Below the pieces are notes generated by a model, which saw nothing but the letters and a program-made list of their open reading frames with translations, did no database searches and was not told the DNA's origin. A stretch of DNA of 64,000 bases from Myxococcales bacterium (lineage in GTDB: Bacteria > Myxococcota_A > Polyangia > Polyangiales > Houyiibacteriaceae): assembly GCA_029861865.1 (NCBI GenBank), contig JAOTYL010000006.1:124001-188000 (forward strand). Reading direction: 5' to 3'. Every line of letters begins with the position of its first letter. Position 1 is the first letter of the stretch. A program made the position numbers and the translations under genes. Shown here piece after piece: positions 37,715-52,900 of this stretch.

Positions 37715-38125
37715 GTGTTGAAAAGTGTGATCCTCGTATGGGCGCTGCTGTCGGCGTGCTTCGTGGCTGCCTGTTCCACCGACCCGGAACCACTACGGGT
37801 GTGGACCGCCGCCGACCACGCCCACCCTCCCGAAAATCTGGTCGACCCCACCCGCGTCCCTCAACAAGAACGACCCGATCTCACAGTCGGTGAGCTCCTC
37901 TGGCAAGGCAAGTGCGCGCGATGCCACGGGCCGACGGGGCAGGGCGGCAGAGAGGCATCGGTGAACTTCACCAGCGCAGACTGGCAGGCAAGCATGGACG
38001 ACCGCAGGATCGCCCAAACGATCGCTGCCGGGAAACCCCCCAACATGCCGTCTTTCGCCGATCTATTGAGCGGGACGCAGATCGAAGAGCTGGTCAAGCA
38101 CATCCGGGCGTTTGGGCGCAACTAG
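37715..38125 (+). CDS. c-type cytochrome lipoprotein
   Basis: 136 residues from GTG 37715. Lipoprotein signal with lipobox AAC (C20). One haem-binding motif CARCHG (C67, C70, H71) and a candidate axial Met in PNMPSF. Length and shape match small class I cytochromes. It follows moaA by 14 bases, so it may share its promoter. Its partner is unknown. Downstream of it is a 346-base non-coding, repeat-filled stretch. Confidence 0.85.
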   Translation: MLKSVILVWALLSACFVAACSTDPEPLRVWTAADHAHPPENLVDPTRVPQQERPDLTVGELLWQGKCARCHGPTGQGGREASVNFTSADWQASMDDRRIAQTIAAGKPPNMPSFADLLSGTQIEELVKHIRAFGRN

Positions 38126-38147
38126 CGCGCAACACTCTGCATCAACC

Positions 38148-38313
38148 GGTGACCGGGGCCGGGCCGCCGGCACGCCCTCGCCCGCTCAAACATCCTCGGC
38201 GGGGATGTTTAGCAGCGCTGTCGAGTCCCTGCAGCAGTCGTGGGTCGGAGAGATGGGTTGGCGCCTGCGGAACTCGCGCTCGAGGACATGCCGGCGGCCC
38301 GGCCCCGGTCACC
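38148..38313. repeat. 166-bp element with perfect 25-bp terminal inverted repeats
   Basis: The arms 38148-38172 and 38289-38313 are exact reverse complements over 25 bases (both GC-rich, beginning GGTGACCGGG on the outside). Inside, AAACATCC (38188-38195) and GGATGTTT (38203-38210) form a second perfect 8-bp hairpin. No ORF of note is inside. No target-site duplication flanks it. It could be a MITE-like miniature element or a large structured RNA. Confidence 0.7.
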
Positions 38314-38326
38314 TACTCCTCGAAGA

Positions 38327-38456
38327 CAGTGCCAGTGCTAGTGTCAGTGTGCGCGCCAGCGTCCGTGCCAGCGCCAGCGCCAGTGTCAGTGCCAGTGTCA
38401 GTGCCAGTGCCAGTGTCAGTGTCAGTGTCAGTGCCGGTGTCAGTGCCAGTGCCAGC
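38327..38456. repeat. Degenerate hexanucleotide minisatellite, locus 1
   Basis: About 21 tandem units of a six-base motif (consensus CAGTGY, with GCC, GTC and GCG variants) run from 38327 to 38456, ending just before the minus-strand gene end at 38472. Unit length is two codons, so one frame would read as Val-Pro/Ser repeats, but no gene is supported. Confidence 0.85.
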
Positions 38457-38471
38457 GAGCCTCGGTGAGGT

Positions 38472-38828
38472 CTAAACGTCCGCGGCCTGCTGGCACTCTA
38501 GGCAAAACGGTGCCTCGGGTTTGGCGCACAGGCGCCGGTAGCCGATCGGTTCTTCGCACTTGCGGCATAGACCATACTCACCGCGGTCGAAGATGGAGAG
38601 GGCGACCTTGCATTGGGTCAGGCGAAGTTGGGCTTTTTCGCGCGTGGCTTTTGCCATGGCTTGTTGCTGCATCGCGTCCATGCGCGATAGCCGGCCCACC
38701 GTGCTCTGATCGAGCACCACCGGATCTGCCGAGTCCGCGTTGGCGCGCAGGGTGTTTTCGAGCTCGGCGACCAGCTCGACCAGCTGCTCCCGCAAGGTTT
38801 CGGCTTGCTTGTCGGAAAGTTCTTCCAT
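38472..38828 (-). CDS. DksA/TraR-family zinc-finger protein
   Basis: 118 residues. Coiled-coil N-terminal helices (residues about 5-70), then a C4 zinc finger: [26 protein letters not shown], given here only as its first 20 residues' pattern CxxC...CxxC. Such proteins bind the RNA polymerase secondary channel and alter promoter response, with or without ppGpp. The acidic tip pair DxxDA typical of DksA proper is present as [10 protein letters not shown], which is less clear, so TraR-like is safer. It ends next to the repeat at 38456. Confidence 0.8.
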
Positions 38829-40825: not shown

Positions 40826-40854
40826 ACACTGACACTGGCACTGACACTGGCACT
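40826..40854. repeat. Degenerate hexanucleotide minisatellite, locus 2 (reverse orientation)
   Basis: Five units of the same six-base motif in reverse orientation (ACTGACACTGGCACTGACAC) end at 40854, touching the stop of the minus-strand gene 40853-41245. Confidence 0.8.
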
Positions 40855-46102: not shown

Positions 46103-46202
46103 CAGTGTCAGCGTCAGTGCCAGTGTCAGTGACAGTGCCAGTGTCAGCGTCAGTGACAGTGTCAGCGTCGGTGCCGGTGATAGCGCCGGTGTCAGCGTCA
46201 GT
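46103..46202. repeat. Degenerate hexanucleotide minisatellite, locus 3
   Basis: About 17 units of CAGTGY-type motif (GTGTCA, GCGTCA, GTGACA variants) between the hotdog-like gene start and the prs stop (46221). The repeat occupies most of this 167-base spacer. Confidence 0.85.
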
Positions 46203-46220
46203 CACGGTCCGCGTAGCGCC

Positions 46221-48972: not shown

Positions 48973-49884
48973 ATGGATTTGAAGATCTTTGGCGCGGTTT
49001 TGATCGGAGCGCTTGTAGGGTGCGGCGGAAGCGCAGTGGACGGGACCGATGGAGGCGTCCCGGATGGCTCGCTTCCCGACGGTGGCTCGCCGGCAGCGTC
49101 TTCGCTGGTCGTCGATGTGGACTGGTTGAAGGCGAACCTCGGCGACCCGAATCTGCAACCCGTCGACACGCGCGGCGCGCCCGCATTCGCAGCGGGTCGA
49201 ATCCCGGGCGCGATCCGTCTCAGGCCGGAGCAGCTCGCGATGAGCGACGGAGACGTCCCCTCGCAGGTGGCCTCCCCAGTGCTTGCCGAGCCAGTGCTAG
49301 GGGACGCCGGCCTTCGCAACGGATCGACTGCCGTGGTGTACGGCGAGTTCCCCGAATACGACCCCGCACGCGTCGTGTGGACGCTCGAGTATTACCGACA
49401 CGGGGATGTTCGCTATCTCGACGGAGGATATGCTGCGTGGCTGGACGCGGGCGGAACGGTAGACAACGAGCCCTCCAACGTGGAAGCTACCGATTACACG
49501 ATCATGGATCTAAACGAGAACGTTCGAGTAACCGGGGATTGGGTGCTTTCGCAGCTCGGTGACGCGCCCTACGACATGCCGTCGATTCAGCTGGTCGACG
49601 CGCGGTCTCTCGCCGAATACGAAGCGGGTCGAATTCCTACCGCTCGCCACGTGCAATGGACCGCCAATCTAGAGGCGGGTCTCCTTCGACCGGTGGCCGA
49701 GATCGAAGCGCTTTATGCGGGCCTGGATCCCTCCGCGCCTACGGTGACCTATTGTCAGACTGGATGGAGGGGTTCGTTCGCTTGGTTGGCGCTTACCTAT
49801 ATTGGCTACGAAGACGTGCGGCTCTACGACGGATCCTGGGCGGAGTGGGGCAATGGCAATGGGACATTCCCGGTAGAGCAGTGA
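48973..49884 (+). CDS. Lipoprotein tandem rhodanese (sulfurtransferase)
   Basis: 303 residues. Lipobox ALVGC. Two rhodanese domains: the first (about 50-160) keeps VDTRGAPAFAAGRIPGAI but has no Cys in the active loop (VVYGEFPEY); the second (about 195-300) has the active Cys in TYCQTGWRGS. It would move sulfur from a donor to a thiol acceptor in the periplasm. TAGAGT at 48961-48966, six bases before the ATG, may be a leaderless -10 box. The stop lies within the first unit of the downstream hexanucleotide repeat. Confidence 0.85.
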   Translation: MDLKIFGAVLIGALVGCGGSAVDGTDGGVPDGSLPDGGSPAASSLVVDVDWLKANLGDPNLQPVDTRGAPAFAAGRIPGAIRLRPEQLAMSDGDVPSQVASPVLAEPVLGDAGLRNGSTAVVYGEFPEYDPARVVWTLEYYRHGDVRYLDGGYAAWLDAGGTVDNEPSNVEATDYTIMDLNENVRVTGDWVLSQLGDAPYDMPSIQLVDARSLAEYEAGRIPTARHVQWTANLEAGLLRPVAEIEALYAGLDPSAPTVTYCQTGWRGSFAWLALTYIGYEDVRLYDGSWAEWGNGNGTFPVEQ

Positions 49885-49973
49885 CAGGGGCAGTGGCAGG
49901 GTCAGGGACAGCGTCAGTGCCAGTGTCAGTGACAGTGTCGGTGTCAGGGCCAGTGCCGGTGCCAGCGACGGTG
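49879..49973. repeat. Degenerate hexanucleotide minisatellite, locus 4, filling an intergenic spacer
   Basis: About 15-16 units of the CAGTGY-type motif run from the last codons of the rhodanese gene (CAG TGA is the first unit) to the GTGATG that holds the next ATG. The entire spacer is repeat. Confidence 0.85.
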
Positions 49974-52900
49974 ATGCTGGTGGGTGCCTTGTTGTTGGGG
50001 TTTCCTGCCTCCACTGCCGCTCATTCGGCAGATGCCGTGGGCGGTGGTTTCGCCGATTCTGGGGTTCTCGGGGCCTATTACGCCAACACCGAGCTCGAGG
50101 GCGCGCCGGCGTTTACGCGGCGTGATGTTCGGATCGATTTCGATTGGGGCGACACGCTGCCCGTCGGGGGTTCGTCGGCGGAGCCCTTTCGATCATTTCC
50201 AACCGATCGGTTTTCGGTGCGTTGGACCGGTCGCATTCTGGCGCGGTTTGGTGAGCCGTACACGTTCGTGGGCGAGGCCGACGATGGGATTCGCATCAAG
50301 CTGAAAAAGCCCGACGACTCCGAGTGGACAATCCTTGTCGACCGTTGGAGCGAACCGGGAGCGTTCGAGTCGATACCGGCTCAGCTGGTAGCGGGGCAGC
50401 CCTACGACATCGAGGTCGAGTACCGCGAAACCAAAGGCAACGCCCGTTGCATTGTGTCGTGGCAGAGCCCGAGCACCCCGCGCGAGGTGATCGATCCCGT
50501 CACTCAGCAGGCGCTCAATGCGGCGTCGTTCGTCAGCTATATCTGGGCGGACCTGATGAAGACGGCACGCTACGGTGCGCAGCGGGAATCGGTCGACGAT
50601 CATGGCTGGCCCACACGGAACGGGACCGAGCTCATCATGATGGAGATGAGCTCGGAAGACCGTGAGCTCAGCGGAACCTATTTGATACGCTTCAAGGGCC
50701 AGGCCCAACTGCGCCAGGCCTGTTGTGGCAACCCGCCTCTTTTCCGGGCGGGGGGCGCTCAGTTCGAACGTACGCTTCCAGCGGGCGCCGGTTACGATTC
50801 TTCGAGCAATACGACTTCAGCAACCATGAAGGCCCGCGGGTCCCGAACGATGCTGTTCTTCGAGAACGCTTCGCGCGGCGGAGAGAGTCGGCGAGCGGGA
50901 GTCACCCAAATAAAGCTCATGAGGCCGTTGGCGCCCGGCAGCGATCAACATCATGCGTCCGACGAAATCGTGTACCGACCTTTCAAGGCGATCGTGCAAG
51001 ACAACTTCACGGCCGTACGCTGGCTCGAAGGCGCTAACGAGAAGACCGAAAAAGAATGGTCCGGTCGAGCTCTTCCAGGCGACGCCTTCTTTCAAAGCAG
51101 CCTCGGCCAGGAGAATTGGGAGTACCTGGTCATGCTCGCCAACGAGACCGGAGAGGACCTGTACCTCACGACTCCCATTGCAGCCGACGATGCGTACTTC
51201 GAGAAGCTCGCGCTCCTGTTGCGCTACGGGTCCGACGGCAAGGAGCCTTATCGTGAGTCTACGCCGAATCCGATCTATCCTCCCTTGAACCCAAACCTAC
51301 GAGTCTATGTCGAAGTCGGAAACGAGATCTGGAATTGGGTATTCGGCTCTACGAGCCTGGCGCAGAGTCTAGCGGCGGGTGAAGCCGAACGAGATTCGTC
51401 GACCTGGGCGGCAATGAGCTATGACGGAGATGTAGGAGAAGCCAATGGGATCCGTGCCGTTCGCCGTTGGCACGCATTGCGCACCGTGGCCTGTAGCAAT
51501 GCGTTTCGTCGGGTGTGGGGTGACGAGGCGATGGGCCCCCGCGTCCGGATGCTCCTCGAGTACCAGTACGACAACTTTCAGAGAACGGCGAGCTCGTCAC
51601 TGCATTTTCTAGACGAGTACTTCGGCAATCGCACCAAAGCCAATGTGATCGACCCTCACCCGCCGAGCTACTATCTGTGGGGCGCCGGGGGCGCGACATA
51701 CTACGGCCTGGCGAACAAGACCGGGGTCCAGACGCACACGGTCGTCCGCGACCCTAGCTTCGAGGCGCCGGCCATCGCATCCAAGTCGCGGGTGCTCACT
51801 CCGTCGGGCTCGGCATGGGCCTTCAAGGGCACCGCCGGCGTCGTTCGGCCCACCGGAGATGGCCGTATCAAGGAGCTCGACGAGCCCGCGAAGCCGAAAA
51901 GCGGGCGGCAGGCTGCTTTCATCTTGGGCAACGGCTCGATCGCACAACGCATCCGATTTGCCAAGCCGGGAAACTACGCGATCGCGTTCAACGCCGCGGG
52001 GTCCGGGGATGGATGGCCCGGTCATCTGCGCTTCGACATCTACGTCGATGAGGTCAAGGTCAGCCCACGAAGTCAGAGCGACATTCGTATCGCCGAAGAT
52101 AGATGGAATTTGAGGGGGTGGACCCGTGAGATCGACAGCCTTGAGGAGGAGTGGGGTAGTGCTGTGTTTCGCATCGATCGACCGGGTGAACGAACCATTC
52201 GGTTCGTCGGCCGGGGCGGCAAAGACTACGTTTTGCTCGACGACATCCGGATCTCGAGCGCCGATGCGATCCTAGAGAGCGGGTTTGATGCGGGCGAGGC
52301 GGAAGGCCAAGTCGGTGACTCCAACCTCGCCAAGCAGTTCCGGCAGCAGTCCAAGTATGCGCGAACCTTCGGGCTTCAGGTCGTTGCCTATGAAGCCGGC
52401 TGGTCTGTAGGAGGAGACTTCCACCAGATTCCGCTCCAGAACTGGTGCAAGCTCAAAGATGACCGAGCGCGAAAGATCAACGATCGCATGATCGATCTCT
52501 GGGACGAGTCCGGCAGTTTCATGAACGTGTGGGGCGTCTATCGATACTGGCCCAACTACGACCTCGCGCATGCGGCCACCTATCCGATCATGCGGAGCCT
52601 CAACGCCGCTTCACGGAGCCTTCGTCGGGAGGCGACCTATGGTCAGACGTTGCCCGCTACGCTCCGCACCAAGGATGCCGACTGGAAGCATGTTTCCAAG
52701 GGCGCCGGGAACGCGTCGTGGTGGCTTCGCTACTTGCCGTGGGCCGATAAGAGCGGCGGAAGCGAATGGTTCAGCTGGATGTTGATTGCGCCGTCGACTC
52801 GAGAGTACTCGATCCAAGTCCGTGCCGAGGGCGAAGGATCCCTCGTCGTCGAAGTCGATGGAGAAGCGGCGATGCGCTTTGAGCCGGTTAGTCCGCCGCT

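Follow-up and report, generated by a model that had tools for sequence, protein, structure and literature searches.

What is the 166-bp palindrome that lies between a cytochrome c-like gene and a DksA/TraR-type gene in the window, the 64,000-nucleotide stretch of myxobacterial DNA analysed here, and how did it come to stand there? The preliminary description had reported perfect 25-bp arms, an inner 8-bp hairpin, a placement between these two genes and a hexanucleotide repeat next to the element, and all of these observations hold. The arms at 38148-38172 and 38289-38313 are exact reverse complements bounding the palindrome at 38148-38313, and they reach 33 bp when two mismatches are allowed. 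The repeat tract (38327 to 38455 or 38458) abuts the element and separates it from the convergent DksA/TraR-type gene. In a scan of the whole 64 kb for inverted repeats with a span of up to 420, the palindrome scored 27 and the runner-up 12, which excludes a chance origin; the inverted repeat is confirmed as real. The earlier statement that the element holds no ORF was loose, since mechanical ORFs of 187 and 118 aa cross it, but neither looks genic. No target duplication was seen by eye at junctions without a left-side tract, and within the 6-bp tandem repeat of the element's right flank a duplication would be indistinguishable. The repeated unit also includes short feet beyond the arms, which had been omitted before (Table 1). 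The predicted RNA fold of the element has an energy of -115.3 kcal/mol (z -7.4) on the + strand and -118.5 kcal/mol (z -8.5) on the - strand, and Rfam scans gave sub-threshold matches only, with no family above threshold.

Table 1 Features of the window element and its surroundings, with the loci of related elements and compared sites (G000, genome of the window; G018, sister species).
Feature	Position or loci	Strand	Remark
Upstream gene, cytochrome c-like (PF13442/PF00034)	37715-38125	+	stop codon TAG at 38123-38125
Left foot CTCTGCATCAACC (consensus CTCTGCGTCAACC)	38135-38147	+	CATC here; CGTC tetranucleotide in many copies
Left arm	38148-38180	+	no mismatch over 38148-38172, two in the innermost 8 bp
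Type A core with inner hairpin 38188-38210	38181-38280	+	two conserved blocks flanking a variable middle
Right arm	38281-38313	+	
Right foot TACTCCTCGAAGACA	38314-38328	+	opposite strand reads GTAG at 38313-38316
CAGTGY hexamer tract, about 22 units	38327-38458	+	presumed type of target for insertion
DksA/TraR-type zinc finger gene (PF01258)	38472-38828	-	convergent
Family feet consensus	CTCTGCGTCAACC ... TACTCCTCGARAACA		
Family end pair	CTCTGCGTCAACC / TACTCCTCGAGAACA		
Sites with the same element or feet only (G000/G018)	L012/L046, L128/L177, L126/L199, L127/L212, L134/L210, L132/L205, L036/L200, L137/L216		L036/L200 least sure
Site with A vs B core (G000/G018)	L122/L181		matching feet
Sites with B vs C core (G000/G018)	L124/L185, L140/L055, L038/L206		matching feet
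Ferredoxin-site elements	L264, L266, L267, L268, L270, L273		
PF05635 element copies	G000 C6 419937-420783, 465492-466339, 495560-496393, 735528-736355; L036, L148		

The element is not a single-copy structure. A search of its own genome (G000; 4.23 Mb in 23 contigs) with the window element found 12 copies of its core, here called type A, as the preliminary description had envisaged for a mobile element; its alternative of a single, unconserved copy fails. The 15 matches consisted of 11 full or near-full copies, two matches belonging to one internally deleted copy and two in which arms cross-matched. Copies are 166-168 bp long with arms of 25-33 bp. The arms had been expected to be identical among copies; they vary from copy to copy, yet remain complementary. 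When the 11 copies were aligned, two core blocks were nearly constant, and the outer arms and the middle were variable. Of 330 cells (30 arm pairs in 11 copies), 94.8% were standard pairs, compared with just 32-40% in slid controls of the arms. Double-sided changes occurred in 12 of the 30 pairs, and none of 500 shuffles reached the covariation score; because kinship of the sequences can inflate the shuffle test, the claim of covariation is based jointly on the slide control and the pairs changed on both sides. Such covariation is expected for a DNA hairpin as much as for RNA. The window copy alone among the 11 has 25 unbroken arm pairs, by an ungapped count that underestimates L003 and L011, each of which carries an arm indel. 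CTAC adjoins the right arm in 8 of the 11 aligned copies, with variants in L007, L008 and L011.

The feet extend the family beyond type A. The right-foot pattern with up to three mismatches gave 33 matches in G000, and its reversed control gave 14; on visual inspection, a hairpin or remnant stood at 23 of the 33, two were feet only, five were unrelated and three were left unread. At least two further cores carry the same outer arms and feet as type A: type B, with the core GGGACGGGCGTGCTC...GCTGCCCATCCC, and type C, with the core GATGGGGGCTTCGTCGG..., found in the sister species G018. The host lineage is an uncultured myxobacterium-like genus. Among the 37 genomes searched, type A was present in G000, G018 (one full copy) and G009 (one near-full copy), which makes 3 of the 19 genomes of the genus; short type A matches in G008, G019, G021 and G022 were judged by eye to be chance look-alikes. 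Type C was full in G018 only, partial in G009 and a remnant in G000. The B query matched 12 of the 17 other genus genomes, G018 aside. Among the matches listed outside G018, only the inner part of the query was covered (about 25-131), except in G009 (the feet, 1-26) and for one match in G005 (3-66), and identity was mostly 70-77% over the full length of that inner part. Twenty B copies from six relatives bear different arms and feet, for example ACCGGAGAACGGCTCG...CGAGCCGTTCTCCT in G014; the core can therefore be separated from the module of arms and feet. Several relatives are represented by fragmented assemblies, and contig ends coincide with some elements. At L172 of G009, the contig starts with about 40 C residues right before the element end, probably a palindrome assembly artefact.

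Elements of the family are closely associated with the hexamer tracts and with gene ends. A tract lay within 80 nt of the right foot in 24 of 26 G000 elements, compared with 37 of 5000 random 80-mers; the two elements without one are L007 and L141. Likewise, the start of 19 of the 26 lies no more than 45 nt past the stop codon of a same-strand ORF (156 of 4000 random positions), as tested with ORFs of at least 100 codons that show codon-position bias. The tracts themselves favour gene ends, with a gene end within 30 nt for 19 of 37 tracts and for 290 of 3000 random positions, so the position of the elements is possibly inherited from their target. Foot and tract correspond in orientation: among 12 inspected type A copies, six have a TACTCCTCGA-type right foot pointing at a CAGTG-reading tract, five have a TACTTCGCGA-type right foot pointing at a CACTG-reading one, and L007 has no tract. 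CAGTGY tracts occur in 18 of the 19 genus genomes, a far wider spread than that of type A, which indicates that the tracts are independent of the hairpin. Under the strict pattern, G018 had 4 tracts in 309 kb and G000 had 33 in 736 kb. Tract numbers are very uneven among species (665 pattern matches in G000, 5 in G018 and 0 in G010), and many tracts genus-wide stand behind genes. Besides the tract at the element, the window holds three more, at 40826-40849, 46103-46204 and 49879-49974, and contig C6 of G000 has 33.

We compared 19 sites whose flanks could be aligned between G000 and G018; these flanks are mostly 82-95% identical. The set omits L141/L207 (positions differ), L081/L211 (single flank), L002/L057 (different sites) and further G018 loci to which no G000 counterpart could be aligned in the DNA examined. 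At eight sites, the two species share recognisably the same elements, intact or part-deleted, or have feet only. At four, a hairpin in one species faces a foot or feet only in the other: the hairpin is missing in G018 at the window site (L189) and at L121/L202 and L147/L204, and in G000 at L087/L220. Four more sites carry differing cores at matching feet, among them L124 and L140, which are paralogous neighbours and possibly not independent. Two sites are a bare tract in G018, where G000 has a remnant (L129/L298) or a full B (the B of L130/L299). At the last site, L007/L173, type A stands beside an inverted B in G000 and B stands alone in G018. The B core of the L173 region has older genus-type arms and lies beside a tRNA gene. 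Most of the compared G018 sites retain feet. At L132/L205, B, tract and A' were once present in both species, and the one of these that has mostly gone differs between the two; an apparent core swap can thus arise by differential loss.

The window site itself reads CTAGCGCTCGGCACTCTG followed by GGTCACCTACTCCTCGAGAACAGG in G018, that is, the feet are kept and the hairpin is absent. It is an eroded allele and not an empty one, and because the feet are kept, the window element most likely predates the split of the two species and would then have been lost in G018. Empty sites had been proposed as a mark of mobility, and this expectation was borne out in part: G018 has the two tract-only sites, both at type B members, and none for a type A copy. 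Insertion is supported by these two sites, which may alternatively be precise losses that left a bare tract. At the cytochrome c site, the outgroup sequence stops 23 nt past the stop codon. A search with the DksA gene missed the G018 counterpart of the window site, where gene order is broken, and the foot pattern located it. When the window segment 38140-41490 is compared with L098/L217, the order of the cytochrome c, DksA-like and lipoprotein/FMN-dehydrogenase genes is found to be rearranged between G000 and G018, and one break of the rearrangement falls at the window's element and tract.

We consider it likely that the 166-bp palindrome is one type A copy of a dispersed, non-autonomous palindromic family that inserts into tracts, then erodes and exchanges or loses its cores. 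What was observed is the copies, their covariation, the association with tracts and stop codons, and the differences between sites; transposition would be the cause of the dispersal. The elements would insert in a fixed orientation into pre-existing CAGTGY tracts behind stop codons, with the GTAG-bearing foot pointing toward the bulk of the tract. An enzyme acting in trans would read the folded hairpin, and our guess is a single-strand, HUH/Y1-like mechanism. After insertion, the palindrome would be unstable: the hairpin may be lost partly or wholly, perhaps by slippage between short repeats, and the feet would remain. GTCA stands at the stem base on the left and right sides alike, and a deletion between these copies could yield the minimal form GCGTCACCTACTCC or something near it, as in L202 and L204. 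At a given pair of feet, one core (A, B or C) would be exchanged for another or lost differentially, either through conversion or through differential loss of adjacent or nested copies.

Two rival readings appear unlikely to a similar degree. As the preliminary description had also suggested, the palindrome could be a structured RNA, here a 3'-UTR RNA under selection, such as an mRNA stabiliser, a terminator or a processing site, which would suit its position directly behind stop codons, the covarying arms and the strong predicted RNA folding. However, comparison of two species with flanks as similar as those above often shows a hairpin deleted or exchanged for another, no T-run follows the window hairpin, no Rfam family was above threshold, and the tracts also stand behind genes, so that the position may come from the target. 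Alternatively, the copies could be immobile today, that is, ancestral repeats homogenised by gene conversion, with palindromes perfected via template switching. The limitation of type A to three genomes, the two tract-only sites and the A copy beside an inverted B at a site where G018 has B alone all argue against this account, even though it would explain the feet kept at most compared G018 sites, the differing cores on the same feet and the 25 unbroken pairs found only in the window copy. Slightly less probable still is a modular docking system, in which the tract-fixed feet would serve as an attachment site and the hairpin cassettes A, B and C would be put in, taken out and swapped by a dedicated enzyme that recognises single-stranded DNA in folded form; the PF05635 element described below might supply this enzyme.

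A further possibility, held tentatively and at better odds than the three alternatives just given, is a special case of the insertion reading: the family may be a REP/REPIN or TIR-kind element moved by a RAYT/TIRYT (Y1) transposase that has since been lost from both hairpin-rich genomes. The GTAG of the right foot, the CGTC of many left feet and the extragenic location near gene 3' ends point in this direction, as do the Y1 genes present in 13 of the 19 genus genomes at E ≤ 0.001 (12 above the curated cut-off). Six of these genes (L151, L153, L154, L155, L157 and L162) are flanked by GGGGACACTCTCC-kind inverted repeats or a variant, and ends of the same kind bound a short palindromic element that immediately follows the stop codon of the ferredoxin gene in six relatives (G014, G005, G011, G006, G002 and G017). 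A ferredoxin match was present in 16 of the 19 genus genomes, and at this 3' site G000 has a B element, G018 has feet and G009 has a remnant and a tract. The GGGGACACTCTCC-ended Y1 genes and the ferredoxin-site elements exemplify, within this one genus and at a site of the same kind, a TIR-type parent with its miniature. This pair does not show that the window family was moved by Y1 enzymes. Neither G000 nor G018 has a match to the Y1 profile (PF01797), none of 20 Y1 loci of relatives contains the family's right-foot or core words, and a check of Y1 loci for hairpins was negative. Stem and loop also far exceed those of REP families as outlined in PMC3733652 (20-40 bp). A 9-base likeness of the A' right foot to the inverted repeat of some Y1 loci (CGCGAAAAC) was dropped, the orientation being opposite.

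Among known systems, the family is both MITE-like and REP-like, and we file it as a member of neither. Like bacterial MITEs, its members are short, non-coding, multi-copy and intergenic with inverted termini, and the MITE-like reading of the preliminary description is upheld by the 12 dispersed copies, the related cores with the same ends and the tract-only sites in a relative. That reading lacks its parent: no transposon or transposase with the same ends was found in a search that covered the Y1 profile PF01797, and every right end inspected in G000 had a nearby left end or was itself a remnant. The family further differs from bacterial MITEs in its varying but covarying arms, its exchangeable cores and its hexamer-tract target. 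REPs are outlined as GTAG-tagged palindromic units of 20-40 bp, mostly near gene 3' ends (Di Nocera 2013, PMC3733652). The window family resembles REPs and REPINs in its palindromic form, in the GTAG at one foot and in its location mostly near gene 3' ends; it differs from that outline in its 166-168-bp length and 25-33-bp arms, as against a unit of 20-40 bp with a 5-13-bp stem, in the many copies that carry GTAG and CGTC at opposite ends of one palindrome, and in that G000 has no RAYT. As for the TIR families with TIRYT sketched in the same source, the GGGGACACTCTCC-ended elements fit their GGGGWSAS motif and use the ferredoxin 3' site, whereas the feet of the window family are unrelated and no Y1 gene is associated with it. 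The microsatellite-targeting MITEs of pineapple, as summarised in PMC8449440, are likewise related-end families that enter simple repeats and cluster, but they are plant, Mutator-like elements with a (TA)n target, and the window family is bacterial with a hexamer target. BrickBuilt of Porphyromonas gingivalis, by the summary in PMC4596501, is another bacterial MITE tied to a tandem repeat; its repeat is internal, whereas the tract of the window family is external and also exists alone. No description of the hairpin family was found in the literature by title or abstract start, which does not prove its absence.

If the insertion reading is right, the family would offer a bacterial case of small palindromic elements landing in simple-sequence tracts behind genes, with two species showing the same sites in states that run from an unoccupied tract through a complete hairpin to feet alone. 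How palindromic repeats arise, exchange their cores and decay, long debated for REPs, could then be read at single sites, and the family would provide a clear example of arms that covary around a constant core.

A second kind of element occupies the same tracts. Within CAGTGY tracts we observed an element of about 830 bp that carries two PF05635 genes (23S rRNA intervening-sequence protein) in convergent orientation, each preceded by a hairpin. It shares its target with the hairpins; a role in supplying their enzyme is speculative. None was seen in the 400 kb of G018 examined, and the G000 DNA examined holds six distinct copies and a fragment near a contig end. The element does not lie within rRNA, and its two PF05635 genes are 53% identical to each other.
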